Assembly: GCF_013283835.1 (NCBI RefSeq)
Contig: NZ_CP054052.1
Span: 1,240,001 to 1,304,000, forward strand
Length of the DNA stretch: 64,000 bases
Direction of reading: 5' to 3'
Source of the DNA: Poseidonibacter lekithochrous
GTDB lineage: Bacteria; Campylobacterota; Campylobacteria; Campylobacterales; Arcobacteraceae
In this document: positions 3,796 to 33,652 of the stretch, in pieces
Position numbering within the stretch: the first letter of the stretch is position 1
How the letters are laid out: each line of letters begins with the position of its first letter
Notes under the pieces: generated by a model
The model's database searches: none
What the model saw: the letters and a program-made list of their open reading frames with translations, nothing else
What the model was told of the DNA's origin: nothing
Position numbers and translations under genes: made by a program

Positions 3796-4383
3796 ATGTT
3801 AAGTAAAAAAGAAAAAAGAAAATTAGAAATTTCTATACAAGCTTATGAAATGTTATTAGATACTGGGGTTGATAACTTTAGTGTTAATAATCTATTAGAA
3901 AACATTACAATGAGTAAGGGGAATTTTTATCACTATTTTAAAAATAAAGATGAACTATTTTGTGAAGCACTAAAAGTTGCTTATGGAAATATTTCTAATA
4001 AAATAAAAGTAGTGAAAGAGATTGAAACTTTTGAAGATAAATTATTAGAAATATTTGCAATATACCTATCAACACATAAAGATACTCTTGCTTATTTGTC
4101 TTTAGTAAATCAAATGTATTATATGTTTTCAAATAAAAAGAACATATATTTATATACTTATATGCAAGAAACATACCACTATATGTTTTCAAGTTTAGAG
4201 TATATTATGAAAGAAGAAATTGCTAATAATAAATTAAACCCAGATGTTTTACATATGGTAAAACCTCTAGTCGCAACTGCTGATGGTATGTTAACTCATC
4301 ACTTTATGCTTGAAGATTATAATTTCCATGATGAGTTGAAAAACTACTTATCTTTTATTTCAAAACAGTATAGTTTAAACTAA
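3796..4383 (+). CDS. TetR/AcrR family transcriptional regulator
   Basis: The N-terminal helix-turn-helix is typical of TetR proteins: a hydrophobic repeat followed by FSVNNLLENITMSKGNFYHY (residues about 34-53) and KNKDELF. The remaining 130 residues form the helical ligand and dimer domain. It is clearly paralogous to the regulator at 29671-30270: both have MSKGNFYHYF in the HTH and a similar C-terminal T/VDGM...F.LE.YN segment. No TAGAC-type palindrome (the operator proposed for its paralogue) is seen near it, so it probably reads a different site. The inducer and targets are unknown. Confidence 0.88.
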   Translation: MLSKKEKRKLEISIQAYEMLLDTGVDNFSVNNLLENITMSKGNFYHYFKNKDELFCEALKVAYGNISNKIKVVKEIETFEDKLLEIFAIYLSTHKDTLAYLSLVNQMYYMFSNKKNIYLYTYMQETYHYMFSSLEYIMKEEIANNKLNPDVLHMVKPLVATADGMLTHHFMLEDYNFHDELKNYLSFISKQYSLN

Positions 4384-15664: not shown

Positions 15665-16990
15665 CTAACTCCTTTTTTCTATCAAAGTTGGTCTATTATT
15701 TATAAATATATAAGAAGCCACTATAAATGTAAGAAACTCTGAAATTGCTAAAGCCATAAAAATACCTACATTTCCAAAGATATTTGGAAGTGTGATTATA
15801 AATATAACTGGTAATATCAAACTTCTTAATAATGCAATAACTACAGAATATAGTGGTTTTTGTATAGATGTTAAATATGATGTAATCAAAATATTTAAGC
15901 CCAGAAATATAAATGCAGGCCAGGCATAAGATATAAACTCTATTGTAATTCTTTTTGTTTCAAGCTCAGAGCTTTCTAAAAATATATTTATTAATGCTTC
16001 TGGAACTATTAATACCGTTAGTGTTATAAGGGCTTCAATAATTATGATTGTAAGAAAGCCTAATTTTAGAAAACTTTTGATTCTCTGGAAGTGTAAAGCT
16101 CCGTAATTCTTGGAGATTATTGGCTGTAGTGCATCTGCGATTGCAAAACTAACCATAACACTTATCATAATGAAATAGCCAATAATTGTATACGAAGCAA
16201 CACCAGTTGCACCAAAGTTTTGAAGCATAATATAGTTGAAAATAAGTACAGTAATTCCAGCACTTGATTCATTTACAAACTCAGATACCCCATTTTTAAC
16301 AGCTTGTATTATATTTAGCCATGAACCTGTTGGTTTTACTAGTTTTAATGTTGCTTTTTTTGAAAAGAAATGAGGAAGTAAAATCAAAATAATAGCTGCT
16401 TGAGAAATACCAGTAGCATAAGCTGCTCCACTTATTCCCCAATCATACTTTACGATAAATAAGTAATCAAGTCCTACATTTATTAATGAACTTAAAAATA
16501 ATGCTGCAAAAGAAAGGTTTGGATTTTCATCTACTCTTACAAAATAATCCAAAACAATAGCACTCATTAAAAATGGTAAAAAAACTAAAAGTATTGGAAG
16601 ATAAAGAAAAGTCTTTTCTCTTAGTTCATCTTGAACATTTAAAATATCTAAAATATTTCCTAAACTTAAGTACAAAATTAAACATACAACAATACTAATA
16701 AGTGAAACAGAAATAATGGATTTTGTAAAAACATTGGAAGCATCTTTTGAATTGTTCTCACCCATTAGTTTTCCAACCATAACTGAGCTTCCAACTGCAA
16801 ACATTAAAGCTAATCCAAAAAGAACAGTAGTAATAGGGTATGAAATATTTATTGAAGCAAGTCCAATTGCTCCTACATAATTTCCTACAAAATATCCATC
16901 AATGATACTTGCAGAAGATATTGCTAATAGTCCTAATATTGAGGGAATAACATATTTAAAAAATAGTATATAAGGTTTTGTATCTAACAT
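15665..16990 (-). CDS. MATE family multidrug efflux transporter
   Basis: The 441-residue protein has twelve hydrophobic helices and the internal two-fold repeat of MATE transporters. Diagnostic stretches include FGLALMFAVGSSVMVGKLMG in helix 2, PFLMSAIVLDYFVRVDENP, and ADALQPIISKNYGA at the start of the second half, equivalent to the family's Q-P-I-x-S-x-N-x-G signature. It would export cationic compounds in exchange for Na+ or H+. An 11-bp inverted repeat at 17012-17040 lies between its likely promoter and start, suggesting repressor or leader control. It diverges from the chemoreceptor at 17269. Confidence 0.9.
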   Translation of the reverse strand: MLDTKPYILFFKYVIPSILGLLAISSASIIDGYFVGNYVGAIGLASINISYPITTVLFGLALMFAVGSSVMVGKLMGENNSKDASNVFTKSIISVSLISIVVCLILYLSLGNILDILNVQDELREKTFLYLPILLVFLPFLMSAIVLDYFVRVDENPNLSFAALFLSSLINVGLDYLFIVKYDWGISGAAYATGISQAAIILILLPHFFSKKATLKLVKPTGSWLNIIQAVKNGVSEFVNESSAGITVLIFNYIMLQNFGATGVASYTIIGYFIMISVMVSFAIADALQPIISKNYGALHFQRIKSFLKLGFLTIIIIEALITLTVLIVPEALINIFLESSELETKRITIEFISYAWPAFIFLGLNILITSYLTSIQKPLYSVVIALLRSLILPVIFIITLPNIFGNVGIFMALAISEFLTFIVASYIFINNRPTLIEKRS

Positions 16991-20081: not shown

Positions 20082-20228
20082 AAATAATCCTTGATTTAAT
20101 TGTTACTGTAAATATAAAAGAAAAAAGTGTGAGAAAGGTGTGATTGATAAAGAATTTCAAAATTTATAAGAGCTCATTAAATTTCTATAAGTTTTATTTA
20201 GCATTATTTATTTATAATTGATTTATAA

Positions 20229-20245
20229 TTAGACTGATGGTCTAA
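20229..20245. promoter_or_regulatory. TetR-type operator (TTAGAC-N5-GTCTAA), site 1
   Basis: TTAGACTGATGGTCTAA has perfect 6-bp arms around TGATG. It directly abuts a -10-like TATAAT (20224-20229), so it would cover the transcription start of the EF-hand gene at 20267. The same palindrome appears at 30282, 30338 and 33636, in front of the tetR block and DUF1800. Confidence 0.75.
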
Positions 20246-20266
20246 AAATTAATTAGGAGATTTAAT

Positions 20267-20770
20267 ATGAAAATTACAAACTCAGTAAATAAAGATGCTA
20301 ATGCAATAATTGATTTAAAGAAGAAAGTATTAACTACTAAAAAAGATGAGATCCCAAAGAAAGAGGAAAAAACTGAAATAAAAGACCCTCGTGAGACTAT
20401 TGTTGTTTCTGTTGAACAAGCAAAATTAAAAGGAATAAAACAACTTATTGGTGGAAAAACAAATAAAGTTCTAGATGAATTAAATAAGCACAAAGTAAGT
20501 CCTAAGGATTTAGAAGATGCAATAAAGAAAATTAAAAGTTTGGATACAAATAAAGATGGAAAAGTAACAGTTGATGAAGTAAAAGCTGATTTAAAGAAGA
20601 ATGAAAATCCAAAGAAAGTTCTATCTTTAGTTAAAAATATAATTGAGGAAGTAAAAAAAGACAAAGATGAAGTAGATATTAATAAATTTAAGAATATTTC
20701 AAAAATGATTAATGAAAATATTATTGGAGGAAAAGAAGGTAAATCTATCAATAAGTTTTTAGAAGACTAA
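20267..20770 (+). CDS. EF-hand domain protein, 167 aa
   Basis: Residues 93-104 form a canonical EF-hand loop (DTNKDGKVTVDE) with calcium ligands at positions 1, 3, 5, 7, 9 and 12. A degenerate second loop (DKDEVDINKFKN) starts near residue 132. The protein is highly charged and Lys-rich, with no signal peptide or membrane helix, so it is either cytoplasmic or leaves the cell by a route that needs no Sec signal. A TetR-type palindrome overlaps its likely promoter and ties it to the distant 27-33.6 kb block. An AGGAGA ribosome site supports the start. The function is unknown; calcium sensing or buffering is an inference. Confidence 0.85.
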   Translation: MKITNSVNKDANAIIDLKKKVLTTKKDEIPKKEEKTEIKDPRETIVVSVEQAKLKGIKQLIGGKTNKVLDELNKHKVSPKDLEDAIKKIKSLDTNKDGKVTVDEVKADLKKNENPKKVLSLVKNIIEEVKKDKDEVDINKFKNISKMINENIIGGKEGKSINKFLED

Positions 20771-20852
20771 TTAACCCAAATTATACTGTAAGTTCGAATC
20801 AATTTTAAAAAAGATAAAATTATTGAAAATAAAGTAAATAGCAAGGCAGTTT

Positions 20853-21533
20853 ATGGATTCGAAGAAAATACTATTAATAGAAGATGATATTAGTTTACAA
20901 AATTTAATAGATGAGTATCTAAAAGAGTACAAGTACTTTTGTACAATTTTTTCAAGTCCACGAAGTGCTTTAGAAGAGTTTTCTAAAAATGCTAATGATT
21001 ACTCACTAGTCATTTTAGATTTAGGACTTCCAGAAATGGATGGTTTTGATTTACTAAAAAAACTAAAAGAGATAAAAGATATACCCATAATTATCTCAAC
21101 AGCTAGAGATGACTTAGGAAATAAAATATTTGGTTTTGAATTAGGAGCAGATGATTATCTTGCAAAACCTTATGAACCAAGAGAGTTAGTATTAAGAATT
21201 GATGCAATCTTAAAAAGATATGTTACTGAGAGTTCTTATATAATTGGTTCTTTTAAAGTACAAAAAGATACAAATCAAGTTTTTTTAGATAATAATGAAA
21301 TTGAGTTTACTAAAATAGAGAATGAAATATTTATGTTGTTGCTAAATAATGCAAATAAGATTATCTCAAGGGAAGTAATATTAAATCAAACTTCATTAAA
21401 AAATGATACAAAAAATAGAACTATTGATATGCATATTAGTAATATTAGATTCAAAATTGATGATGATTCAAAAGATTCTAAACATATTAAATCAGTTTGG
21501 GGGATAGGGTATAAGTTTATAAATGACAATTAA
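20853..21533 (+). CDS. OmpR-family response regulator
   Basis: The receiver domain has LIEDD (residues 8-12), phospho-acceptor Asp56 in VILDLGLPEMDG, the switch Thr/Ser in IISTARD and Lys in YLAKPYEPREL. It is followed by a winged-helix domain (IEFTKIENEIFMLLLNN ... NRTIDMHISNIRFKID ... VWGIGYKF). The cognate kinase overlaps it by 11 bases. The layout resembles the ArsR/ArsS acid-response pair of Helicobacter and Campylobacter, and a Na+/H+ antiporter gene lies downstream; this parallel is only suggestive. Confidence 0.93.
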   Translation: MDSKKILLIEDDISLQNLIDEYLKEYKYFCTIFSSPRSALEEFSKNANDYSLVILDLGLPEMDGFDLLKKLKEIKDIPIIISTARDDLGNKIFGFELGADDYLAKPYEPRELVLRIDAILKRYVTESSYIIGSFKVQKDTNQVFLDNNEIEFTKIENEIFMLLLNNANKIISREVILNQTSLKNDTKNRTIDMHISNIRFKIDDDSKDSKHIKSVWGIGYKFINDN

Positions 21534-22908
21534 AAAAAGATTATATATCTCCTTCTTATTAATTTTATCAATTATCATATTTATAATTGGAATTTTCTTT
21601 TATGCAATAATTAATGTAAATGATATTCATCTTTTACAAAATCAAAGATATGAACAAATTAGAAAAGTAGAGAAAATAAAAGAACTTAATACTGCTTTTG
21701 CTTGGGTTGTTCTTGATATTATTGTGGATAGAAGAAAAACAGAAATTGTAAAAGATAGAAAAGATAAAGCAAATGAACTTTTCAAAAAACTTTGGCAGTT
21801 AAAAACAGATGTATTAAAACATGCAGAAACTGGTATAGAAAAAGATAAATTACTTACAATTTTTAATAATCTAAAAAAAGCAGAAAATTTAATAAAAGTA
21901 GATTTATATAATCTTACTATTTCAAAATCAACAAAAGATAACTTTTTTGATTTTAGTGATAGGTTTGATTCTATAAGTAGTAGTACTCAGACCCTAATAA
22001 TCGAAGAAATTGAGTTATTACAAGCAAAACTAAATCAAACAGAAAAACAAAAAGAAGCCTTTTTAAGTAAGATAAAACTTGAACTTATAATTCTTCTTTT
22101 TATATCATTCTCACTATCTTTTATAATCTCATCTAAATTAATTAGAGAAATAAAAATCATGTTAAAAACTCTAAATAAAGGGGTTTTACAACTACTTAGT
22201 AATAATGAGAAAACTATTAAAATCAATATAGAAGAGGGTAATGAACTTAGTGAAATTACAAATAACCTTAATAAATATCTAGAACAACAAGAATCTTTTA
22301 TTAAATCAAGAGAAGAACTTCTTCGAAATATTAGTCATGAACTAAAAACTCCAATAACAAAAGGAAAGTTTTTATTAGAAAAAATTAGAGTAAAAAAAGA
22401 TGAAAAAAGTCTAGATAATATTAATGAAGTTTTTTATGATATTGAAACTCTAACAAGTAAACTTTTAGAGAGAGAAAGACTAAATCACGCTACTTTAGAT
22501 AAATCAAAATTCCTTATTTCAACAGTGATTTTAGAAGCTTTATCAAAATTATCAATTGATGATGAATCAAAAATATCTATAGAATTAGAGGATGATTTTC
22601 AAATTGAAGCAGATTTTTATTATCTTACTATTGTAATAAAAAATCTAATTGATAATGCTATGAAATACTCAAATATATACCCAATTGAAATTCATACAGA
22701 AAATAAAACTTTGTATATAAAAAACAACGCAAATAAATTATTTAATGATTTAAATTATTATATTCAACCTTTTACAAGGGAAGCAAATCAACAGCAAGGT
22801 CACGGTTTAGGATTGAATATTGTCAATAAAATCTTACAAATGCACGACTTTAATTTTCAATATAACTACAAAGAACCCCATAATATCTTCTCTATAAACT
22901 TCAAATAA
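21523..22908 (+). CDS. Sensor histidine kinase (ArsS-like organisation)
   Basis: Membrane helices lie at about residues 9-31 and 187-204, enclosing a periplasmic helical sensor of roughly 155 residues. Then come a HAMP-like segment and the H-box LLRNISHELKTPITK with His272. The ATPase domain has an N-box (IKNLIDNAMKYS) and a G2-like GHGLGLNIVNKIL. Its G1 region (LYIKNNANKL) lacks the usual DxGxG, as in several compact epsilonproteobacterial kinases. It is coupled to the regulator at 20853. A hairpin after the stop separates it from nhaA. Confidence 0.9.
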   Translation: MTIKKRLYISFLLILSIIIFIIGIFFYAIINVNDIHLLQNQRYEQIRKVEKIKELNTAFAWVVLDIIVDRRKTEIVKDRKDKANELFKKLWQLKTDVLKHAETGIEKDKLLTIFNNLKKAENLIKVDLYNLTISKSTKDNFFDFSDRFDSISSSTQTLIIEEIELLQAKLNQTEKQKEAFLSKIKLELIILLFISFSLSFIISSKLIREIKIMLKTLNKGVLQLLSNNEKTIKINIEEGNELSEITNNLNKYLEQQESFIKSREELLRNISHELKTPITKGKFLLEKIRVKKDEKSLDNINEVFYDIETLTSKLLERERLNHATLDKSKFLISTVILEALSKLSIDDESKISIELEDDFQIEADFYYLTIVIKNLIDNAMKYSNIYPIEIHTENKTLYIKNNANKLFNDLNYYIQPFTREANQQQGHGLGLNIVNKILQMHDFNFQYNYKEPHNIFSINFK

Positions 22909-22927
22909 TAAAAAAGTGTCAAGTAAT

Positions 22928-22965
22928 TGTCAATAAATCCTACCTAGGAGTATTGACAGTTTTTA
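22928..22965 (+). terminator. Hairpin plus T-run between kinase and nhaA
   Basis: TGTCAATA pairs with TATTGACA, and inside it TCCTA pairs with TAGGA around CC. The stem is followed by GTTTTTAT. This fits a terminator for the two-component operon. It might also be a leader element of nhaA, whose start is 37 bases downstream. Confidence 0.6.
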
Positions 22966-23001
22966 TATATAGTTAATGTAACAATATATAAAGGTTATTT
23001 A

Positions 23002-24300
23002 ATGACTCAACAGTTACAAGTTTTTCAACGATTTATAAAAGATGAATCGTTTAGTGGTGTATTATTATTCATAGCAACTTTATTAGCAGTTATTATTGCT
23101 AATTCAGCGTTTAGTGATAGTTATTTTGAATTATGGAATAAAAGTTTAGGTGTAACATTAGGTGAACATCAAATTTCTATGACCTTAACTCAATGGATAA
23201 ACGATGGATTAATGGCAATATTCTTTTTGATGGTTGGATTAGAGATTAAAAGAGAACTTTTAATAGGAGAATTGTCTTCTGTTCAAAAAGCATCTTTCCC
23301 AATTATCGCTGCAATTGGAGGAATGTTAATTCCTGCACTGTTCTATGTATTTTTTAACTTGGATGACCCAAAAGGATTTGGTATTCCAATGGCCACGGAT
23401 ATTGCTTTTGCTTTAGGTATTTTAATGCTTTTAGGAAAAAGAGTAAATCCAGCTTTAAAACTATTTTTAGTAGCTCTTGCTGTTGTTGATGATTTAGGTG
23501 CTGTAATGGTAGTTGCTACTGTATATACAAGCCAAATACATTTTGAGTACTTTCTTCATGCTGGTATTATATATGCCTTAATTTGGTTGTTAAACTATAG
23601 AAGAGTAACTTCATTAATTCCATATTTGATTTTAGGTATTGCATTATGGATTTATATTCACTCTATTGGAATTCATGCGACAATTGCAGGGGTTTTATTG
23701 GCTTTTGCTATTCCTATTAAATCTAAGGTAAATGAAAAAGAATTTATTAATGGTACTAAAGAACTAGTAAATGACTTTGAAAAAAACATAGATAATATAC
23801 CTATTTTAAATCACCATCAAATTGATGTATTAGAGAGTATTGCCTATAAATACGACAAGGTTCAAAACCCACTTTTAAAATTAGAACATCAATTACATGG
23901 TCTGTCTGCATTTTTAATTATGCCAATTTTTGCTTTTGCAAATGCAGGAGTTGTTTTAGATTTCTCAGCAGTATCTCAAAATATGATGATTGTATTAGGT
24001 GTTGTATTAGGTCTATTAGTAGGTAAACCAATAGGTATTTTTGGTTTTACATATTTAGCTACAAAATTAAAAATCGTAACAAAACCTGATGATATTTCAT
24101 GGGGTGAGATTATGGCAGTTGGTTTCTTGGGTGGTATTGGATTTACAATGTCCATTTTTATTACTCAATTAGCCTTTGTTGATGCTAGTGTTATTTCAGC
24201 TGTTAAAATTGGTATTTTCTTTGCTTCTTTTATTGCTGGTATTATTGGTGTTTTATTGATTTTAAAAGCAAATAATAAGACAAGGATTCAAAATGGCTGA
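23002..24300 (+). CDS. nhaA: Na+/H+ antiporter NhaA
   Basis: NhaA exchanges internal Na+ for external protons and serves pH and salt homeostasis. Diagnostic parts are present: FFLMVGLEIKRELLIGELS, PMATDIAFALGIL (sensor Asp) and LAVVDDLGAVMVVA (the two ion-binding aspartates). GIHATIAGVLLAFAIP and the C-terminal GGIGFTMSIFITQLAF also match. At 432 residues it is longer than the E. coli protein. The extra part is an acidic, hydrophilic insert around residues 245-300, which is common in marine NhaA proteins. It starts a three-gene operon; the next gene overlaps its end by 8 bases. Confidence 0.96.
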   Translation: MTQQLQVFQRFIKDESFSGVLLFIATLLAVIIANSAFSDSYFELWNKSLGVTLGEHQISMTLTQWINDGLMAIFFLMVGLEIKRELLIGELSSVQKASFPIIAAIGGMLIPALFYVFFNLDDPKGFGIPMATDIAFALGILMLLGKRVNPALKLFLVALAVVDDLGAVMVVATVYTSQIHFEYFLHAGIIYALIWLLNYRRVTSLIPYLILGIALWIYIHSIGIHATIAGVLLAFAIPIKSKVNEKEFINGTKELVNDFEKNIDNIPILNHHQIDVLESIAYKYDKVQNPLLKLEHQLHGLSAFLIMPIFAFANAGVVLDFSAVSQNMMIVLGVVLGLLVGKPIGIFGFTYLATKLKIVTKPDDISWGEIMAVGFLGGIGFTMSIFITQLAFVDASVISAVKIGIFFASFIAGIIGVLLILKANNKTRIQNG

Positions 24301-24928
24301 AGATATTGTTTTAAACACAAACTGTAAAAACAGAATAAAACCAAAACTAATAAGAGATGTAAAAACAGAAGCATTATTAGTATTTGCAAGAACTGCTCTA
24401 GAGCGGTTCTTTGCAAAAAATGAAAATGTAGAACTTATGAAAATAGGAAGTATTGAAGATACAAAAAAGATTTATAAAAGTTTATGGGATCTAAAAGAAA
24501 AACTAGAAGATGTTGTTGTAAATGTAGAGTACTTATTGAATCTAGTACAAACTGCAAAACGATATGCTCCTTTGAAAAAACTTGCAAAATATGAAGAACC
24601 TTTGATTACTTATTATGATGCAATGGCAAAAAGAATAGAGTTTCATATTCCTAAAGAGAGGGTGTTTATGCCTGAGTTCTTAGTACTTTGTACTTTGAGT
24701 CATTGGGTAATTGAAGAAGAAAAATCTGTGACTTTATATCCATTTTTAAAAGATTTCGATTTTCTATCTTTAATAGAAAAATATGAAGTTGCAGCTTTAG
24801 ATAAAAATGAAGATAAAAAAAATATTGTCGATATTCATAGGGTTTCAACAGATTTAATAGAAATACTTAAAAAAACAAAATACAAGTTTAATAAAGATCG
24901 TGTTTCAAAAACAAGAAGAAAGAAATAA
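24293..24928 (+). CDS. Hypothetical protein between two cation antiporters
   Basis: I do not recognise this family. The 211-residue protein is hydrophilic, rich in Lys and Glu, with no signal peptide, membrane helix or catalytic motif. One cysteine lies near the N-terminus (TNCKNRIKPKL) and the C-terminus is very basic (KDRVSKTRRKK). Its start overlaps the end of nhaA by 8 bases behind an AAGGA site, and the CPA2 antiporter follows 12 bases after its stop. Translational coupling suggests a cytoplasmic partner or regulator of ion transport (inference). Confidence 0.8.
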   Translation: MAEDIVLNTNCKNRIKPKLIRDVKTEALLVFARTALERFFAKNENVELMKIGSIEDTKKIYKSLWDLKEKLEDVVVNVEYLLNLVQTAKRYAPLKKLAKYEEPLITYYDAMAKRIEFHIPKERVFMPEFLVLCTLSHWVIEEEKSVTLYPFLKDFDFLSLIEKYEVAALDKNEDKKNIVDIHRVSTDLIEILKKTKYKFNKDRVSKTRRKK

Positions 24929-24940
24929 AAGGAAAATAAC

Positions 24941-26545
24941 ATGTTAGAAATTATTATATTTACAATTCTTATTTCAACAATCTTAAATCTATTTTTGAAA
25001 AAAGTAGGAATACCAACAATCATTGGATATATAGCAACAGGTACAATAATTGCTTATGGATTTAATTTACATGAAGCAGTTCATAATGAAGATTTAAAAG
25101 AAATAGCAGAATTTGGTGTTGTATTCCTGATGTTCACAATTGGTTTGGAATTCTCTGTAAATCATTTGATAAAAATGAAAAAGGAAGTATTTTTATATGG
25201 TGGTTCCCAAGTTATTTTAACAGCTGTTTTATTCTCTTTTATTGGAAACTATTTTTTCTCACTAGATTTAAAATCTTCAATTATTATAGGACTTGCTTTT
25301 GCTTTATCATCAACTGCAATTGTCTTAAAAGTTCTAAATGAAAATGGAGATATTAATAAACCTTATGGAAGAAGAGTTTTAGGGGTTTTACTATTTCAAG
25401 ATATTGCTGTAATTCCTATTTTATTAATGATTACGATTTTTTCAAGTGTAAATCAATCTATTTCTTCACTGCTTACACAAACATTTATAGATGCAACTAT
25501 TTTATTACTTGGTCTATTTATTGCAGGAAAGTATTTATTAGAGCCATTTTTATTAAATGTAGCAAAAGCAAAATCAAATGAAATATTCATTAGTTCGATT
25601 TTACTTTTAGTAATTGGAACTTCATATATAGCTCATGTTTTTGGGTTTTCTTATTCATTAGGAGCATTTATTGCAGGTATGATGATTGCAGAGACAAGAT
25701 ATAAACATCAAGTTGAAGCAGATCTAATTCCTTTTAGAGATCTTTTATTAGGTGTGTTTTTCATTACAGTTGGTATGCAATTAGATTTTAAAATTATTTA
25801 TGAAAATATTACTTCTATTGTAGTTTTATTACCAATTATTATTGTTATAAAAATTAGTATTATTTATGCAATTATGAGATTAACAAGTAATAATAGAACA
25901 TCACTTAAAACAGCTGTTTCACTGTTTCAATTAGGTGAATTTGCCTTAGTTATATTTGAGTTATCATTTGCACGAGATTTAATAGACCCAACTATTGGAC
26001 AGATTTTAATTGTAACAGTTGTAATTTCTATGATTATTACACCTTTTGTACTAAAAAATCTATCTACTATTGTTGATAAGTTAAATGGAGGAGAAAGCAA
26101 AGTAAGTAATAGTTCTGTTGTTAGTAATTCTGAATTATCAAATCATATTATTTTAATTGGTTTTGGAAGACTTGGTAAAAACATTGCTAATCTTATCAAA
26201 GAAGATGGTGGTACTTTTATAGCCATTGAAAATGATATAAAAACAGTAATAGATGCGCAAAAACTAGGACTTCCAGTGATTTATGGAAATGCAGCTAAAA
26301 AAGATATTTTAAAGTCTTTGAATATTCATGATGCTTCTTCTGTAATTGTATGTATTGGAAATAGTGAGAAACTAATCCATATATGTGAGGTTGTAGATGA
26401 AATGGCAGAGGGTAAAAAGACAGTTGTAAAAGTAAATAAATATGAAGAGAAGAATGATTTATCAAGATTAAACCTATCTCATATTATTGTAGAGACTGAA
26501 AAAACAGCCTCTGCCATGTATGAAGAAGCTATCTCTTTGGATTAA
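24941..26545 (+). CDS. CPA2-family cation:proton antiporter with TrkA-N domain (KefB-like)
   Basis: Residues 1-375 contain about 12 membrane helices with the CPA2 pattern (FLMFTIGLEFSVNHLIKM, ALSSTAIVLKVL, LLFQDIAVIPILL, GAFIAGMMIAETRYKHQVE). A cytoplasmic RCK/TrkA-N Rossmann domain follows (HIILIGFGRLGKNIANLI, IYGNAAKKDILKSL, VICIGNS) at about 400-510, so nucleotide gating is likely. There is no clear TrkA-C domain. The protein would move K+ or Na+ against protons in the inner membrane. It is last in the nhaA operon. Its last 17 bases overlap the convergent Rieske gene. Confidence 0.92.
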   Translation: MLEIIIFTILISTILNLFLKKVGIPTIIGYIATGTIIAYGFNLHEAVHNEDLKEIAEFGVVFLMFTIGLEFSVNHLIKMKKEVFLYGGSQVILTAVLFSFIGNYFFSLDLKSSIIIGLAFALSSTAIVLKVLNENGDINKPYGRRVLGVLLFQDIAVIPILLMITIFSSVNQSISSLLTQTFIDATILLLGLFIAGKYLLEPFLLNVAKAKSNEIFISSILLLVIGTSYIAHVFGFSYSLGAFIAGMMIAETRYKHQVEADLIPFRDLLLGVFFITVGMQLDFKIIYENITSIVVLLPIIIVIKISIIYAIMRLTSNNRTSLKTAVSLFQLGEFALVIFELSFARDLIDPTIGQILIVTVVISMIITPFVLKNLSTIVDKLNGGESKVSNSSVVSNSELSNHIILIGFGRLGKNIANLIKEDGGTFIAIENDIKTVIDAQKLGLPVIYGNAAKKDILKSLNIHDASSVIVCIGNSEKLIHICEVVDEMAEGKKTVVKVNKYEEKNDLSRLNLSHIIVETEKTASAMYEEAISLD

Positions 26546-27641
26546 GAAGCTTTTCTATAATAGATTGATACTCAAAAAGAGGTTTTTCTAAGTCTTGTGC
26601 TAAGGCATTTACTTTAAAGTGAGGTGATTTAATATTTTTTTGAATCATCTCACAAACATATATATCCTCATTCATTACATCAGGTTTTTTCAATAACTCA
26701 CTCTTTGATTTTTTTCCATCTCTATAGTCATAAACTAATTCATTTTTAAACTTTTTTGAACCATAGTTTGATTTAATAAATACTTCAATTTCAGTTTGAG
26801 TAGCACTTAGAGGTTTTATATGAATAAACATACATAAGTTCTCTGTAGCTGTTATTCCAAAGTTTGGAAATAACATACTTACATAAGCACCTTTTTGACC
26901 ATTGAAAGATTTTATATCACCCATATATCCACTCCACCAAGAACTAGAACTTTTTCCTTTTTGGCTTAGTGGCTGATAGAATAACCATTGATTATTTACA
27001 AACTCATTGTGTGAATTTTTATGGTCATACTCTTTTAGACTCTCTTTATGAATATGAAATAAATGATAAACATCCATGTAATTTTCTACGAATATTTTCC
27101 AGTTTGCATTTATAATATATTTATATCCATCATTTGATTTTAACTCAGAGATATTATCATAAGGTAAAATTCTGTCTTTAATAGGATTTAGAATATCACT
27201 AATACTTTGAGCTTTTAAATCAAGGTTTACAAATACTAAGCCGTTCCAAACTTCACATTGTACTTTTTTTAATCCTAGACATTTTTTTTCTTTATGGGCA
27301 AACTCTTTACTTTGAGGAAGACCTTTTAATTCACCTTTTAGTGAGAAGTTCCAGTTATGATAAGGACATATTATAGAAGACTCAATTTTTTCATCACCTC
27401 GTAAAATTGTCATTCCTCTGTGAGAACATATATTTACAAAAGCATTAATCTCATTTTTATCATTAACTACAATAATAGGTGTATTTCCAATATCTTTTAA
27501 TATATAAGATTTAGGTTCACTTAGCTCTTCTTCCATACATACAAATTGCCATTGTGTCTCAAAGATTTTTTCTTTTTCATTTTCAAAACATGCTTCATCA
27601 TAATAAGCAGTTTTATCTAGTATTTGTTTTATTTCTTGCAT
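26529..27641 (-). CDS. Rieske [2Fe-2S] non-heme iron oxygenase, alpha-subunit type
   Basis: The N-terminal Rieske domain has CSHRG (Cys72, His74) and CPYHNW (Cys92, His95) as cluster ligands. The catalytic domain has NWKIFVENYMDVYHLFHIH, in which Asp190, His193 and His198 match the bridging Asp and the 2-His facial triad of ring-hydroxylating or demethylating oxygenases. The length of 370 residues fits the family. No beta subunit, ferredoxin or reductase gene is adjacent, so it must borrow electrons elsewhere. It is the last gene of the tetR/radical SAM block, behind an AAGGA site. The substrate is unknown: related proteins act on aromatics, quaternary amines or other small molecules. Confidence 0.92.
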   Translation of the reverse strand: MQEIKQILDKTAYYDEACFENEKEKIFETQWQFVCMEEELSEPKSYILKDIGNTPIIVVNDKNEINAFVNICSHRGMTILRGDEKIESSIICPYHNWNFSLKGELKGLPQSKEFAHKEKKCLGLKKVQCEVWNGLVFVNLDLKAQSISDILNPIKDRILPYDNISELKSNDGYKYIINANWKIFVENYMDVYHLFHIHKESLKEYDHKNSHNEFVNNQWLFYQPLSQKGKSSSSWWSGYMGDIKSFNGQKGAYVSMLFPNFGITATENLCMFIHIKPLSATQTEIEVFIKSNYGSKKFKNELVYDYRDGKKSKSELLKKPDVMNEDIYVCEMIQKNIKSPHFKVNALAQDLEKPLFEYQSIIEKLLNPKR

Positions 27642-27650
27642 CTTATATCC

Positions 27651-27899
27651 TTAACTTGAAACCGTGAAAAAACTCAATATTGCAAAAGTAAACCAAGTTA
27701 TTACAATAATCCAATATAAAATTGGGTTTTCATCTTTTTGAATTATTTCTAATAGGTAAGTTTGTCTATTTCTAATATCTAATATTGTCCAAACTAAAAA
27801 TAAAAATCCAAATAACCAATATTTTCCACTTATTACACAAATCAAAATAAATAATAAGGCTAGTTTTGATTTGAGTTTATCTAATAGTATTTTTTTCAT
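27651..27899 (-). CDS. Small membrane protein, 82 aa
   Basis: Two hydrophobic segments (LALLFILICVISGKYWLFGFL and YWIIVITWFTFAILSFF, bounds approximate) with a short polar link indicate an inner-membrane hairpin. I know no family for it. GGAGAAAA precedes the ATG. It lies 8-9 bases from both the radical SAM gene upstream and the Rieske gene downstream, so all three are almost certainly cotranscribed. Confidence 0.78.
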   Translation of the reverse strand: MKKILLDKLKSKLALLFILICVISGKYWLFGFLFLVWTILDIRNRQTYLLEIIQKDENPILYWIIVITWFTFAILSFFTVSS

Positions 27900-27907
27900 T
27901 TTTTCTC

Positions 27908-29158
27908 CTATGCATAAAATGCATTTATTCCAAGTTGTTTTATTTGTCTAAATTTTCTTTTACTATAGTTTGAAAAAGAATTAAATTGTTTATAGAAATC
28001 ATATTGACCTTGAAGTAACTCTTCAACACTTAAATTTTTTGGTTCATATACAACATCAGAACCATTATAACGTGACCAGTCATAAGTTAGAATTCTATTT
28101 TGACTCTCTAAATCTTTAAAAAGTTTTGTTCCAGGAAAAGGTATTTGAACTACTGGGTCACAAACATCAATTTTTACATCTATTGCAAACTCTAAACTTC
28201 TATCAAAGATTGATTTATCATGTTCATCAAAACCAAACATCATTGCTGAATCAACTATAATTCCATGGTCATGTAGTTTTTTGATTCTATCTTTTATTTC
28301 ATTTACTTTTACAAAACCTTTTCCCGTACCCTTTAGTGCTTCTTGAGATGGAGTTTCTAGTCCAACTAATAAATACATAAGACCACTTTTTGAAGCAAGT
28401 CTTAAAAGTTCATCATCTTGGGCTATTGAAATATCACTTGCAACTGCCCATTTGATATTTAAAGGAGTTATTGCTTGGAATAACTCTTTTGCATAGTTTT
28501 TATCAGCTGTTAGATTATCCGAGTGTAACTCAATAAAAGAAGCCTTACTATTTGCTATTTCTTCTACTATTTGTTCAATTGGTCTATATCTTATTTTCCC
28601 AAAAAATGGATTTACAACACAGAAGTGGCATTTATAAGGACATCCTCTACTTACTGTAACTGTCCAAAAATCATCATAATCCTCTTTTGCTATTAAATCA
28701 GTTGGGTAGGGTTTTAATTCTTTTAAATCAAGAATAGAATCTCTTTTATAGATATCTTTTAATATATCACCTCTTTCATAATCATCTAATAAATCATGAA
28801 TTATCCCTTCACATTCACCTTGGATTACACTATGACCATATTTAAGTGCTTCTTCACTCATAAAACTAGCATGTAAGCCAGCTAAGAATACTAGTTTCCC
28901 CATATCTTTAAATTTTGATGCTATTTCATATGCTCTTATCGCATCGGGAGTTGAAAAAAATATTCCAATAATTTGGGCATCACTTTTATAGTTTACTAGA
29001 TGGTTGGCTGTTTCATCAATAAGTTCTAATTCAACTCTGCCTTTTAACTCAGCTGCCGCTGAAAATATGTTTTGAGAGGGACTTCCTCTTTTTGCTTTAT
29101 AATCTTTGAAATCACTTGGTGCTGATGCTTTAATAAGTTGAACTTTTGAAACTTTCAT
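27908..29158 (-). CDS. B12-binding-domain radical SAM protein
   Basis: The first 140 residues form a Rossmann-like cobalamin-binding domain (DAQIIGIFFSTPDAIRAYEI, KLVFLAGLHASFMSEEAL). The radical SAM core follows, with the [4Fe-4S] motif SRGCPYKCHFC (Cys173, Cys177, Cys180), then SFIELHSDNLTADKNYAK and LLVGLETPSQEALKGTGKG. Such class B enzymes methylate unactivated carbons or phosphinates, or rearrange rings and tetrapyrroles. The substrate cannot be read from sequence. It lies in a tight minus-strand operon with tetR upstream and the Rieske oxygenase downstream, suggesting consecutive steps on one small molecule or lipid (inference). Confidence 0.93.
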   Translation of the reverse strand: MKVSKVQLIKASAPSDFKDYKAKRGSPSQNIFSAAAELKGRVELELIDETANHLVNYKSDAQIIGIFFSTPDAIRAYEIASKFKDMGKLVFLAGLHASFMSEEALKYGHSVIQGECEGIIHDLLDDYERGDILKDIYKRDSILDLKELKPYPTDLIAKEDYDDFWTVTVSRGCPYKCHFCVVNPFFGKIRYRPIEQIVEEIANSKASFIELHSDNLTADKNYAKELFQAITPLNIKWAVASDISIAQDDELLRLASKSGLMYLLVGLETPSQEALKGTGKGFVKVNEIKDRIKKLHDHGIIVDSAMMFGFDEHDKSIFDRSLEFAIDVKIDVCDPVVQIPFPGTKLFKDLESQNRILTYDWSRYNGSDVVYEPKNLSVEELLQGQYDFYKQFNSFSNYSKRKFRQIKQLGINAFYA

Positions 29159-29167
29159 TTTTTGTCC

Positions 29168-29665
29168 TTATTTTGATGATAAATAAATTGTTACATCATA
29201 TTTGCTTTTACTTAAGTCAAATAATCTGTACTCTTCAATATCTGTTTTAAAATTTCTATTTACTTTTTCTTTTTGAATTTCATCCCATATATCACTCATA
29301 TTCAAATTCTGTTCATATTTTAAAATACCTCTTTGATATTTTGAATCTTTGATAAGTTTACTTTCGAAGTTTTTAATTTTTAAATCAGATTTTATTCCTA
29401 TAAAACAATCAAAAGAGTTCTTTTTATAATTAGTATAAACCACATATAATTTTTTATCTTTACTTTTTTTTACTGAAAAATTATTTGATGAGAATAGTTT
29501 TTCCCATAATTTTGCTATTTGATTATCTCTATCTTCTTTTGTTTTATATACAATGGCTTTACTGAAACCTTTTATTTCAAATTCATCTAATGCTGTTTGT
29601 TTGAAGTTGAATTCTAAAGCATTTGAATATGTATATAGAATAAGAAAAATTAGTATTTTTATCAT
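29168..29665 (-). CDS. Hypothetical exported protein, 165 aa
   Basis: A short signal peptide (MIKILIFLILYTYSNALE) is followed by about 145 residues of mixed beta/alpha, Lys-rich sequence without cysteines other than one at about residue 92. No known family is recognised. The ribosome site AAGGA lies inside the end of tetR, and the radical SAM gene begins 9 bases after its stop, so it belongs to the tetR operon. Probably periplasmic. Confidence 0.78.
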   Translation of the reverse strand: MIKILIFLILYTYSNALEFNFKQTALDEFEIKGFSKAIVYKTKEDRDNQIAKLWEKLFSSNNFSVKKSKDKKLYVVYTNYKKNSFDCFIGIKSDLKIKNFESKLIKDSKYQRGILKYEQNLNMSDIWDEIQKEKVNRNFKTDIEEYRLFDLSKSKYDVTIYLSSK

Positions 29666-29670
29666 TTTGC

Positions 29671-30270
29671 TTAGTCCTTTTTTATCATTAATATAAAGTT
29701 ATCTAGGTAGTCTTGAACTTCTTTATTTAGATTGTAATTTTCTAATATAAAAGAATACATCATCATTCCATCAACTGTTGCACTTAAAGTAGATACAAAA
29801 TATATAGCTTCTTCTTTTATAAATCCTTTTTCTATCTCTTCTTTAATAGCAGTTTTAATACTCAAAGAAAGATATGTAATATAATCATTGTTTATCTGAC
29901 ATATCTTTCTTTGATTATTAGAAGAATAAGTGATTAGAAATTCATTATATAGTTTTAGAAAATCTTTATTAGTTTTTGAATCTTTTAAATACATTTCAAA
30001 TAAAACTTCAAGTTTGTTTTTTAATGTTTCAGAGTTCTTTATTTTCTCATCACAATAAAGAATATATGATTTTGTAAACTCTTCCATCATTTTATGTATT
30101 AACTGATCTTTAGACTCAAAATAGTGATAAAAGTTACCTTTACTCATATTTAAATCTTTTAACAAAGAATCAATTGAAAACTTTTTAATACCTTCTTTGA
30201 TTAAAAAATCATAAGCCTTATGAAGTATCTCTAATCTCTTTTTATCTTTATTTACGATCTTTGGTGCCAT
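29671..30270 (-). CDS. TetR/AcrR family regulator, likely of the TTAGAC-N5-GTCTAA regulon
   Basis: The helix-turn-helix is FSIDSLLKDLNMSKGNFYHY at residues about 35-54, followed by SKDQLI and a 130-residue helical ligand domain. Two palindromes of TAGAC-N5-GTCTA lie in its upstream region, one just after a minus-strand -10 (TATAAT, 30305-30310). The same palindrome occurs before DUF1800 and the EF-hand gene. Autoregulation plus control of those genes is the natural reading, though binding is inferred. It heads an operon with an exported protein, B12-radical SAM, a small membrane protein and a Rieske oxygenase. It is paralogous to the regulator at 3796. Confidence 0.92.
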   Translation of the reverse strand: MAPKIVNKDKKRLEILHKAYDFLIKEGIKKFSIDSLLKDLNMSKGNFYHYFESKDQLIHKMMEEFTKSYILYCDEKIKNSETLKNKLEVLFEMYLKDSKTNKDFLKLYNEFLITYSSNNQRKICQINNDYITYLSLSIKTAIKEEIEKGFIKEEAIYFVSTLSATVDGMMMYSFILENYNLNKEVQDYLDNFILMIKKD

Positions 30271-30281
30271 TTAATTCCTTT

Positions 30282-30296
30282 TAGACTGATGGTCTA
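30282..30296. promoter_or_regulatory. TetR-type operator, site 2
   Basis: TAGACTGATGGTCTA has 5-bp arms with the same TGATG centre as site 1. It lies between the minus-strand -10 (30305-30310) and the tetR ribosome site, where binding would block transcription. Confidence 0.75.
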
Positions 30297-30337
30297 TAAA
30301 GAGAATTATAATAGCACTAAACTTAAAATACACTTTA

Positions 30338-30358
30338 TTATAGACTAATGGTCTATAA
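30338..30358. promoter_or_regulatory. TetR-type operator, site 3
   Basis: TTATAGAC, TAATG and GTCTATAA give perfect 8-bp arms. It is in the upstream part of the tetR promoter, about eight bases past the DUF1501 stop codon. With site 2 it forms a pair of operators 56-57 bases apart centre to centre. Confidence 0.75.
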
Positions 30359-30366
30359 AATATTAT

Positions 30367-31836
30367 TTAGGATAAAAAGCCAATAGGATTATTTGTACTA
30401 GATGAGGAATAAAAGTTTTTCAAATTAGGTAATAGAGTATCTAATTCATTTTTTTCATATCCAAACCAAAGTGCAAGTTCTGCAAACATTTCATCTGTAG
30501 ATAAACTAGGAATTATAACTCCCCCACCTATATCAACACTACTATTTAAAGCCAAACTAGGGTATTGACCAAAAACTTCTCCACCTTTGATATCTTTTCC
30601 CATAATAATTGTATTTCCTCCCCATCCATGGTCAGTTCCGTTTCCATTAGAGGTAAGAGTTCTAGCAAAATCAGAAGCAACAACAGTTAGTGTTTTATCA
30701 TCAACTCCTAACTCTTCTAGTGAGGCTTGAAAATCTCCTAAGGCATTACTTAATACTTCTAACATTCTTTTGTGATTATTTAAAAGTTCATCATGATGAT
30801 CCCAGCCATAATACTCAATAAAAAATGTCTGCTTAGGTAAGTTTAAATCACTTGAAGCTTTTATTGATTTAGCAATCATTTTAAATTGTTCAGGAATAGA
30901 TTTATCTGTACTTGTAAATTTAATATCACTTCTATTGTCATAATTTACATACGTATGAGCAATATTTACTTTATTAACTTCTGCTTTAAATTTCTCATGA
31001 TGTGTTTGAGCATACCTAGTTGTTTCCATATAAGTATTTTCAAAAGAGTCTGAATATGACTTATTTAAAACAGTATTAAAACTGCTAAGTAGGGCATTAT
31101 TTAGCTGTGTGATAGCGGGATCATTTGATGACTTTTTTACTAATAAACCTATACTTCCATCTTTTGTCACTGAATATTCTTTAGAAGAATTACCATTTTG
31201 TGAAATATTTGTACCTGATAAAGAGATATTCATAGAGATTTGATTATTTGCTTTATTAGCTTGGAATTTATCAGCAAACTTTCCTAATACCCCAATATTT
31301 GTTCTTTCATTTGCTCTTGATGTTTGCCAATGTTTTATTTGGTCAGAGTGTGACATTAATCCCAGAGGTAATTCCACACTATTATTGTTAAATGAAGTCT
31401 TATTTGTAGGTTTTACTAGGGGTGCAATATTTGAAATAAATGATAGTTTTTTACTGTTAAATAGATTTTGCACCTTTGCCATACTTGGATGTACAGCAAA
31501 AGTTTTACCATTTGAATCAGTAAAATCATTTAAAGGTAAAAGAGTATTTTTTGTTATTGCTAGGTTTGATCTTGAACTTTGATATTCATTATAAGAGTTT
31601 GTATTTGTAGGAACTAACATATTAAAACTATCATTTCCTCCTGCAAGCATTACATAAACTAAAGATTTATTAGCATTTACATTATTATTGTTTGGATTAC
31701 TTGGTAAATTGTTATTTGAACTTGTATTTATACTCAAAGATCCTGCTTCTCCACAACCATGTAAAAACATAGAAGCACTAATAGCCATTGCAGTGGAGTT
31801 TTTTATAAACTCTCGTCTTGTTAATTTTTTACTCAT
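30367..31836 (-). CDS. DUF1501 family protein with Tat/lipoprotein signal
   Basis: The N-terminus has a twin-arginine motif (TRREFIKNS) and a hydrophobic stretch ending at LHGC, so a Tat-exported lipoprotein with Cys28 at its N-terminus is likely. The body matches DUF1501, an alkaline-phosphatase-like fold family: VYVMLAGGNDSFNMLVP, FAVHPSMAKVQNLF, ASDFARTLTSNGNGTDHGWG. It is encoded 10 bases after DUF1800, its usual partner in many bacteria. The biochemical function of the pair is not established; roles in surface polymers or polysaccharide turnover have been discussed. An AAAGG site supports the start. Confidence 0.9.
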   Translation of the reverse strand: MSKKLTRREFIKNSTAMAISASMFLHGCGEAGSLSINTSSNNNLPSNPNNNNVNANKSLVYVMLAGGNDSFNMLVPTNTNSYNEYQSSRSNLAITKNTLLPLNDFTDSNGKTFAVHPSMAKVQNLFNSKKLSFISNIAPLVKPTNKTSFNNNSVELPLGLMSHSDQIKHWQTSRANERTNIGVLGKFADKFQANKANNQISMNISLSGTNISQNGNSSKEYSVTKDGSIGLLVKKSSNDPAITQLNNALLSSFNTVLNKSYSDSFENTYMETTRYAQTHHEKFKAEVNKVNIAHTYVNYDNRSDIKFTSTDKSIPEQFKMIAKSIKASSDLNLPKQTFFIEYYGWDHHDELLNNHKRMLEVLSNALGDFQASLEELGVDDKTLTVVASDFARTLTSNGNGTDHGWGGNTIIMGKDIKGGEVFGQYPSLALNSSVDIGGGVIIPSLSTDEMFAELALWFGYEKNELDTLLPNLKNFYSSSSTNNPIGFLS

Positions 31837-31845
31837 TTTATGCCT

Positions 31846-33615
31846 TTATCTTTTTTTCAATACTGTAAATTCAGGTGAAATAGCAATCATAAATACTACT
31901 GTTTGAACTACCCAGTTTTTATTGCTATATCCAATTTCATTATCAATTGTATTTTTGATTTCATTTAATATGCTAATGTTTTCTTTTCCAGTTAAAACTA
32001 AGGAGATTCTTTTTATTAGGGTTTCTATATCCGAAGCTGTAGCTAAGGCTTTTTCACTTGTAAAATCAAAAGCAAGTTTGTCATTTGCTAAAGTTGTATC
32101 AGAAGTTCTAAAAAACTCACTTGCATGAATTTGTGTAGGTACTGTAATATTTAGTTTATTATTTGAATCACTAAAAAGTAACTCATACATACTATTTACG
32201 TATGCTATTGATGTAGCAGAATTATGTAACTGAAATTCTGGTGCCACTTCATTTGCATTTTCAATACTTCCATGTGGGGCATAGTTTGGTAAATAAAAAT
32301 TAAAAACCGTAGGAGAAGATAAAACATGCTGGTTTAATTTATTATCTACTAAATCTCCTCTAAACCATAATTTTTTAGAAGTATTAGAAGTATTAAAAGC
32401 TCTTAATAATTGAGTGATTCTTAATAGTGGAGATTTTAGTTTTTTTGCACTTGTTTTAGCTTCACTATTTAAAAATATCTCTTTAATAACAGCTTTTAAA
32501 TCCCCACTAGTACCAAACTTACTAGCAACTGCTTGAATATAACTAGCACTAGGATTAGAGTTTGTAAGTTGTTGTATTAGTTTTTTTGCTATAAAAGGTG
32601 CAGTATTTGCATGTGCTACTAAATCATCAATTGCTTTATTTACATCAGAGATTAATGTACCTCCACTTGAGATATTAACTTTTGTATTTAATAAACTCTT
32701 AGTAGTAATATCATGTAGTGAACTCTCTTCAATCATTTGATTTCTTATATTAATATAAGGAATAGTTTTATGTATTTTAGGAGAGGAGTCACTTAAATCT
32801 ATTGCAGAGTTATTTGTAAAACCTGATATTTGAGCTGGCCATTCATACTCATATGAAGAGGCTTTAATGCCTGTAAAAACTTTCGCTAATTGTTTGATAT
32901 CATCATTGTTATAAGTAGGGATGTTTTTTCCATTGGCATCTTTTTTTTCACTAGCATCACTATTTAATTCATTTAGTCCAATAGTAAAAAGTTGCATTAA
33001 TTCTCTTGCATAATTTTCATCAGGATGTTGATTTCCATTCTCTTTTTTATTATTTAAGTGAGTTAAATAAACTCCCATACAAGGGTGTAATGATACTTCT
33101 TTTAGTATATCACTGTAATTCCCAAAAGCATTTTCATAAAAAATATCATAAAAATTCGCCATTCCTAGGGCATCTAATTCTAAGTTTGATTTATCGGAAA
33201 TAACAATGATTTCACTTAAAGCCTGAGCAATTCTGTGTCTTACTAAGTCATTACTATCAATTTCTTTTGCATTTGTTATAGGATTATTTACATTCATATT
33301 ACTGTTTGCTTTTGCTAAAGTTCTATGCCACCATGCCATTCTAAAATAAAAGTTATACGGTAGTGTTGCATTTCCAACTCCAATAATATTGCCACTTCCA
33401 TTATCTCCTGAGGCTGTAATTGCTTGAGTTCTAAAATCTTGCCAAATTTGATTTACTCTATTTTCAAAACTATCTGTATTATCAAAGCTTGAGTTTAATT
33501 GATTATCAAGCCATGTTTCAATTCCTGTACTTGCTACATTTGAAATGGTGTCATAATTTGCACCTAGTGTTGCTTGCATTAAAAAAAATGATGCATCTTC
33601 TAAAGTATCTGCCAT
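31846..33615 (-). CDS. DUF1800 family protein
   Basis: The start MADTLEDASFFLMQATLGAN is the typical DUF1800 opening. It is followed by WLDNQL, VRHRIAQALSEIIVIS, DIFYENAFGNYSDILKEVSL, the HPCMGVYLTHLNN region, NYARELMQLFTIGL and SPTVFNFYLPNYAP. At 589 residues it is of normal length. There is no Sec signal peptide, whereas its DUF1501 partner has a Tat signal; possibly the two are exported together. A perfect TetR-type palindrome lies 21 bases upstream of the start. AAGGA precedes the ATG. Confidence 0.92.
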   Translation of the reverse strand: MADTLEDASFFLMQATLGANYDTISNVASTGIETWLDNQLNSSFDNTDSFENRVNQIWQDFRTQAITASGDNGSGNIIGVGNATLPYNFYFRMAWWHRTLAKANSNMNVNNPITNAKEIDSNDLVRHRIAQALSEIIVISDKSNLELDALGMANFYDIFYENAFGNYSDILKEVSLHPCMGVYLTHLNNKKENGNQHPDENYARELMQLFTIGLNELNSDASEKKDANGKNIPTYNNDDIKQLAKVFTGIKASSYEYEWPAQISGFTNNSAIDLSDSSPKIHKTIPYINIRNQMIEESSLHDITTKSLLNTKVNISSGGTLISDVNKAIDDLVAHANTAPFIAKKLIQQLTNSNPSASYIQAVASKFGTSGDLKAVIKEIFLNSEAKTSAKKLKSPLLRITQLLRAFNTSNTSKKLWFRGDLVDNKLNQHVLSSPTVFNFYLPNYAPHGSIENANEVAPEFQLHNSATSIAYVNSMYELLFSDSNNKLNITVPTQIHASEFFRTSDTTLANDKLAFDFTSEKALATASDIETLIKRISLVLTGKENISILNEIKNTIDNEIGYSNKNWVVQTVVFMIAISPEFTVLKKR

Positions 33616-33635
33616 AAAAATCCTTATTAAAAGTA

Positions 33636-33652
33636 TTAGACTAGTAGTCTAA
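33636..33652. promoter_or_regulatory. TetR-type operator, site 4
   Basis: TTAGACTAGTAGTCTAA is a fully symmetric 17-bp palindrome (8-bp arms, central G). A minus-strand -10-like TAAAAT lies seven bases upstream (33660-33665), so the site covers the expected transcription start of DUF1800-DUF1501. Confidence 0.78.

Follow-up and report, generated by a model that had tools for sequence, protein, structure and literature searches.

Four perfect palindromes in a 64,000-nucleotide stretch of the Poseidonibacter lekithochrous genome (hereafter the window; bases 1240001-1304000 of the contig) are predicted to be operators of the TetR-family regulator encoded at 29671, TetR(29671), which would repress three transcription units, eight genes in all, together. 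From the sequence evidence presented below, the probability of this reading is put at roughly four in five (0.82). The four sites are unique in the genome, they stand in front of the three units, and their arms are conserved in a sister genome. A TetR dimer would bind each TAGAC-YRNYR-GTCTA core, whose half-sites, one helical turn (10 bases) apart, fit a single dimer. The position of the operators at or just after a -10 element or start fits repression by blocking of the polymerase. The units predicted to be repressed by TetR(29671) are the gene of a calcium-binding (EF-hand) protein, a DUF1800-DUF1501 operon and its own small redox-enzyme operon, and a ligand would release the regulator and so switch on the eight genes together. 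A second operator at tetR, recurrent in this group of regulators, may serve cooperativity.

The Palindrome and Its Rarity

The element shared by the four sites is a 15-mer, TAGAC-N5-GTCTA, which is perfect at all of them. The preliminary description had given it as TTAGAC-N5-GTCTAA. The four sites do exist, with the spacers TGATG, TGATG, TAATG and TAGTA that were listed, all matching YRNYR, but only 20229 and 33636 carry the longer 17-mer without mismatch; at 30281 it has one mismatch (it ends in TAT) and at 30340 two (ATAGAC...GTCTAT). The coordinates 20229-20245 and 33636-33652 likewise stood, while 30282-30296 and 30338-30358 had to be replaced by 30281-30297 and 30340-30356 for the 17-base sites. 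All four palindromes are intergenic, in agreement with the same description.

A genome-wide search had been set beforehand as the test of the motif. The genome is a single contig of 3,568,672 bases (3.57 Mb), and the 15-mer occurs in it without mismatch at these four places and nowhere else; the outcome that would have spoken against a regulon, many copies within genes or before unrelated ones, thus did not appear. Under a first-order (dinucleotide) model built on the window, which has 27% G+C, the genome should contain ~1.9 such 15-mers and the window 0.035, so that at least four cores in the window have a Poisson P of ~6e-8; for a core with a YRNYR spacer the expectation is 0.13 genome-wide. 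A relaxed pattern brought in three more places and no others, none of them a promoter: a one-mismatch near-match at 2381038 and a TAAAC/GTTTA near-match at 2686192, both inside genes, and a one-mismatch near-match at 2763790 that covers the 3′ end of a tolB-like gene. Genome-wide, 60 cores with one mismatch were counted, against 73 for a reversed control, which is noise, and those that fit YRNYR were never at promoters. The 17-mer, when as many as 3 mismatches were allowed, showed no enrichment in the window either, with 39 matches against 48 expected, and the signal therefore lies in the perfect cores. By the perfect-core search, the shared operator is limited to the promoters of the member units, as is expected for a regulon. 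Outside the window, at C1:864296-864790, a repeated unit with 60-base spacing contains AAGACTCCAAGTCTA and probably belongs to a repeat-bearing gene.

Promoters and Genes of the Predicted Regulon

Operator 1 (TTAGACTGATGGTCTAA, 20229-20245) is located in front of the EF-hand gene and abuts a TATAAT (20224-20229), whose last base immediately precedes the core at 20230. The gene (20267-20770, + strand) has an AGGAG ribosome site before its ATG and encodes a 167-aa protein with one canonical EF loop (DTNKDGKVTVDE). The spacer of operator 1 is identical to that of operator 2.

The 96 bases that separate the DUF1501 stop from the tetR start contain both operators 2 and 3. The tetR-proximal operator 2 (30281-30297, core TAGACTGATGGTCTA) is 8 bases downstream of a TATAAT on the - strand, and the tetR-distal operator 3 (30340-30356, core TAGACTAATGGTCTA) is 59 bases from it, just after the DUF1501 stop. 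A palindromic operator overlapping its own promoter is characteristic of a TetR-family regulator, and the pair of perfect cores ahead of tetR, which homologues have too, agrees with this. The proposed reader, TetR(29671) (199 aa, 29671-30270, - strand), has the recognition helix SKGNFYHYF and a TetR_N helix-turn-helix domain above cut-off (Pfam PF00440, E 1.8e-8); for named TetR equivalogs (BetI, AcuR, FadR and others) it is below the NCBIfam cut-off, with 44 bits at best against 201 for BetI. Its gene is the first of five on the - strand separated by gaps of 5-9 bases. The second (29168-29665) encodes a Cass2-like (GyrI-type effector-binding) protein whose N-terminus has a signal-like stretch, the third (27908-29158) a radical SAM protein for which the nearest NCBIfam models, BchE/HpnJ, are below cut-off and the B12-binding match is weak, the fourth (27651-27899) an 82-aa membrane protein, and the last (26529-27641) a Rieske/ring-hydroxylating oxygenase alpha-type protein. 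A hint at the ligand from the matches of TetR(29671) to BetI and of the Rieske protein to glycine betaine monooxygenase was set aside, both being weak and far below cut-off.

Operator 4 (TTAGACTAGTAGTCTAA, 33636-33652) is in front of the gene of the 589-aa DUF1800 protein (31846-33615, - strand), with 8 bases between a TAAAAT and the core. A 9-base gap separates this gene from the co-operonic DUF1501 gene (30367-31836, - strand), whose 489-aa product has a twin-arginine/lipoprotein-like N-terminus. Outside the window, at C1:1090379-1091386, there is another DUF1800 gene, diverged (41-50% in parts) and without the operator. As tetR heads a five-gene operon, the predicted regulon consists of three transcription units and eight genes.

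The -10 hexamers at the operators were identified by eye. By this means the -10-like hexamers previously described at three of the sites were found again (one abutting, two at 8 bases), but an automatic -35/-10 scan gave no promoter overlapping any of the four sites, and a consensus -35 was not found at the operator-bearing promoters. The promoters are therefore putative.

Recognition Helix and Operator in TetR Homologues

Homologues of TetR(29671) were drawn from 150 related genomes, and the best 30 loci, that of its own genome included, were examined. Among these loci, TARACYRNYRGTYTA was found upstream of tetR in 15 of the 19 with an SKGNFY or SKGQFY helix, TetR(29671) being one of them (14 of the 18 SKGQFY-helix homologues when it is left out), and in none of the 11 with another helix. 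The association has a Fisher P of 5e-5, a value that ignores shared ancestry and for which two rows are identical proteins. At 39% identity, the closest relatives differ both in the helix, GKSSFYNYF, and in the palindromes at their tetR, GGGAC/AGGAC. Helix and operator thus co-vary, which ties the palindrome to the SKG[NQ]FY type of regulator.

Two sites upstream of tetR were observed in seven homologues besides TetR(29671) among the best 30 loci, with a spacing of 43-45 bases in the homologues versus 58-59 in this genome and in the sister genome described below. In five loci (L020, L022, L023, L024 and L026) a TATAAT is followed directly by the core in front of tetR, the same arrangement as at the EF-hand promoter. 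Efflux genes (MATE, SMR or RND/TolC) lie next to most of these homologues. TetR(29671) shares with this SKG[NQ]FY/TARAC efflux-type group the helix, SKGNFYHYF, and the TARACYRNYRGTYTA operator, with four cores, and no efflux transporter is adjacent to it. Genome contigs searched with TetR gave no close relative. A MATE transporter gene in the window (15665-16990) resembles the ones that accompany SKGQFY-type tetR genes in relatives and has no such operator ahead of it.

Comparison with a Sister Genome

The sister genome G009 (Arcobacter sp. UBA7394) is a metagenome-assembled genome (MAG), 86% complete, in which the DUF1800 protein is 99% and the radical SAM protein 97% identical to those of the window; DUF1501 and the genes from Cass2-like to Rieske are in the same order. 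It has three perfect cores only, one at DUF1800 and two in the interval from DUF1501 to the Cass2-like gene. When the intergenic DNA of the two genomes was aligned, changes were found at 0 of 30 arm positions, 4 of 15 spacer positions and 30 of 173 flank positions (P ~0.01), a pattern that supports the regulon reading. The EF-hand region was not recovered in this MAG, whose 86% completeness is too low for a claim of true absence.

In G009 the Cass2-like gene comes directly after the two operators, with no tetR in between, and a close tetR copy was not found elsewhere in the incomplete MAG. The G009 sites may consequently be read by something other than the product of this tetR. Their retention without it suggests that the Cass2/radical-SAM operon, and not tetR alone, is served by them. 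In the stretch from the proximal operator to the Cass2-like start (L063:2360-2470), AGGACTAA matches the last tetR codons and hints at a deletion.

Alternative Explanations

The window encodes a second TetR protein at 3796-4383 (+ strand), TetR(3796), with a recognition helix identical to that of TetR(29671), SKGNFYHYF, and thus a possible competing reader. The sites would then be real operators read by TetR(3796) or by both proteins, with control of the EF-hand and DUF1800 promoters shared or split. The retention of operators in G009 without an adjacent tetR also points to a reader other than TetR(29671). We nevertheless regard this explanation as unlikely: no palindrome stands at the start of TetR(3796) itself, which shares only about 33% identity with TetR(29671), sits on a long branch and lacks the MAPKIVNKDKK N-terminal arm, and a close copy of neither TetR was found in the sister MAG. 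The proposal of TetR(29671) as the natural reader is strengthened by the pairing of helix and operator and weakened by the missing tetR at the G009 locus and by the shared helix.

It is very improbable that only the tetR and DUF1800 sites function and that the EF-hand copy is a chance palindrome. The EF-hand gene is 9 kb away, and neither it nor its site has an ortholog for comparison, as would suit a chance occurrence; against this, no core is found elsewhere in a genome where only ~0.13 of such cores are expected, the spacer is the same as in operator 2, the core directly follows the TATAAT, just as it does in five tetR promoters of homologues, and an EF-hand gene is part of the corresponding Vibrio cluster (see below). 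Scarcely any weight is given to the idea that the palindromes are RNA hairpins, terminators or copies of a small repeated element instead of operators. They are perfect inverted repeats, and one comes after the DUF1501 stop; yet both a T-run and a terminator call are missing, the arms are kept while spacers and flanks differ, the same palindromes precede unrelated tetR operons, and other copies were not found in the genome. The preferred reading, a regulon of TetR(29671), had been proposed as a probable regulon of three promoters. It is supported by the uniqueness of the sites, the 14 homologous tetR genes, G009 and the Vibrio cluster, and its extent has grown by the four further genes of the tetR unit.

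A Similar Gene Cluster in Vibrio

Vibrio sp. THAF191d (L106) has, within 5.5 kb, a homologue of the 82-aa membrane protein (29%, E 3e-15) adjoining a radical SAM gene (47% identity), together with genes for a secreted EF-hand protein, DUF1501 and DUF1800 (46%). In contrast to the window, these genes form one contiguous locus, and a tetR or Rieske gene was not seen there. The two EF-hand proteins show no sequence homology beyond the calcium loop; the one described here, unlike the secreted Vibrio protein, has no evident signal peptide. Beside the other DUF1800/DUF1501 pairs examined, neither an EF-hand nor a radical-SAM gene was present.

Within Arcobacteraceae the radical-SAM gene is found in this genome and G009 only (104 family genomes, E 1e-40), and 397 genomes from the phylum contain distant ones only. 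A search for EF-hand homologues in the same two sets of genomes and in plasmids gave, outside this genome, only two weak matches, to 1000-aa open frames; nothing recognisable as a homologue came from the Arcobacteraceae genomes covered. The gene set resembles a module that few lineages have acquired. A tentative extension is that a TetR of efflux-type lineage was rewired to an undescribed candidate cell-surface module comprising the Tat-exported DUF1501 with DUF1800, the EF-hand protein and the radical-SAM/82-aa membrane/Rieske set. Because the module recurs largely as one Vibrio cluster and is rare in Campylobacterota, the operators would, if the rewiring took place, define its member genes; this is possible, with the odds somewhat against it.

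Known Systems and Significance

TAGAC/GTCTA half-sites are known from other TetR-family operators, namely the McbR operator of C. glutamicum, TAGAC-N6-GTCTA, and the IR1 of QacR in S. aureus, CTTATAGACCGATCGATCGGTCTATAAG (PMC9210681). The spacer here is N5 with the YRNYR pattern, the regulators and targets of McbR and QacR are unrelated to those of the window, and QacR binds a longer site as two dimers. Nearer are the efflux-linked SKGQFY TetRs of Arcobacteraceae (MATE, SMR and RND/TolC operons; L020-L041), which have the same helix type and palindrome class at tetR, often two sites, and the TATAAT abutment. They are located beside drug-efflux genes, whereas the targets here are DUF1800/DUF1501, EF-hand and radical-SAM/Rieske genes, two of them at other promoters.

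In PMC5122149, DUF1501/DUF1800 genes are linked to bacterial chitin synthase genes. In that system, as here, the genes are paired and DUF1501 has a twin-arginine signal; the window differs in that the pair has no chitin synthase neighbour and is joined by operators to the EF-hand and radical-SAM/Rieske genes. In literature represented mostly by titles and abstracts, nothing on the function of DUF1800/DUF1501 beyond gene linkage was found, and among titles none on an Arcobacter TetR operator was recognised.

There is nothing unusual in an autoregulated TetR with few targets, and TetR operators with TAGAC/GTCTA arms are already known; what is new is the set of targets. DUF1800 and DUF1501 are widespread and paired, without known function. 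The predicted regulon, small, closed and comprising eight genes, has independent support from the Vibrio cluster; it names their probable partners and offers a way to switch on the DUF1800/DUF1501 genes, by deletion of tetR. Moreover, the pairing of helix and operator across Arcobacteraceae provides a rule for predicting TetR targets in the family.
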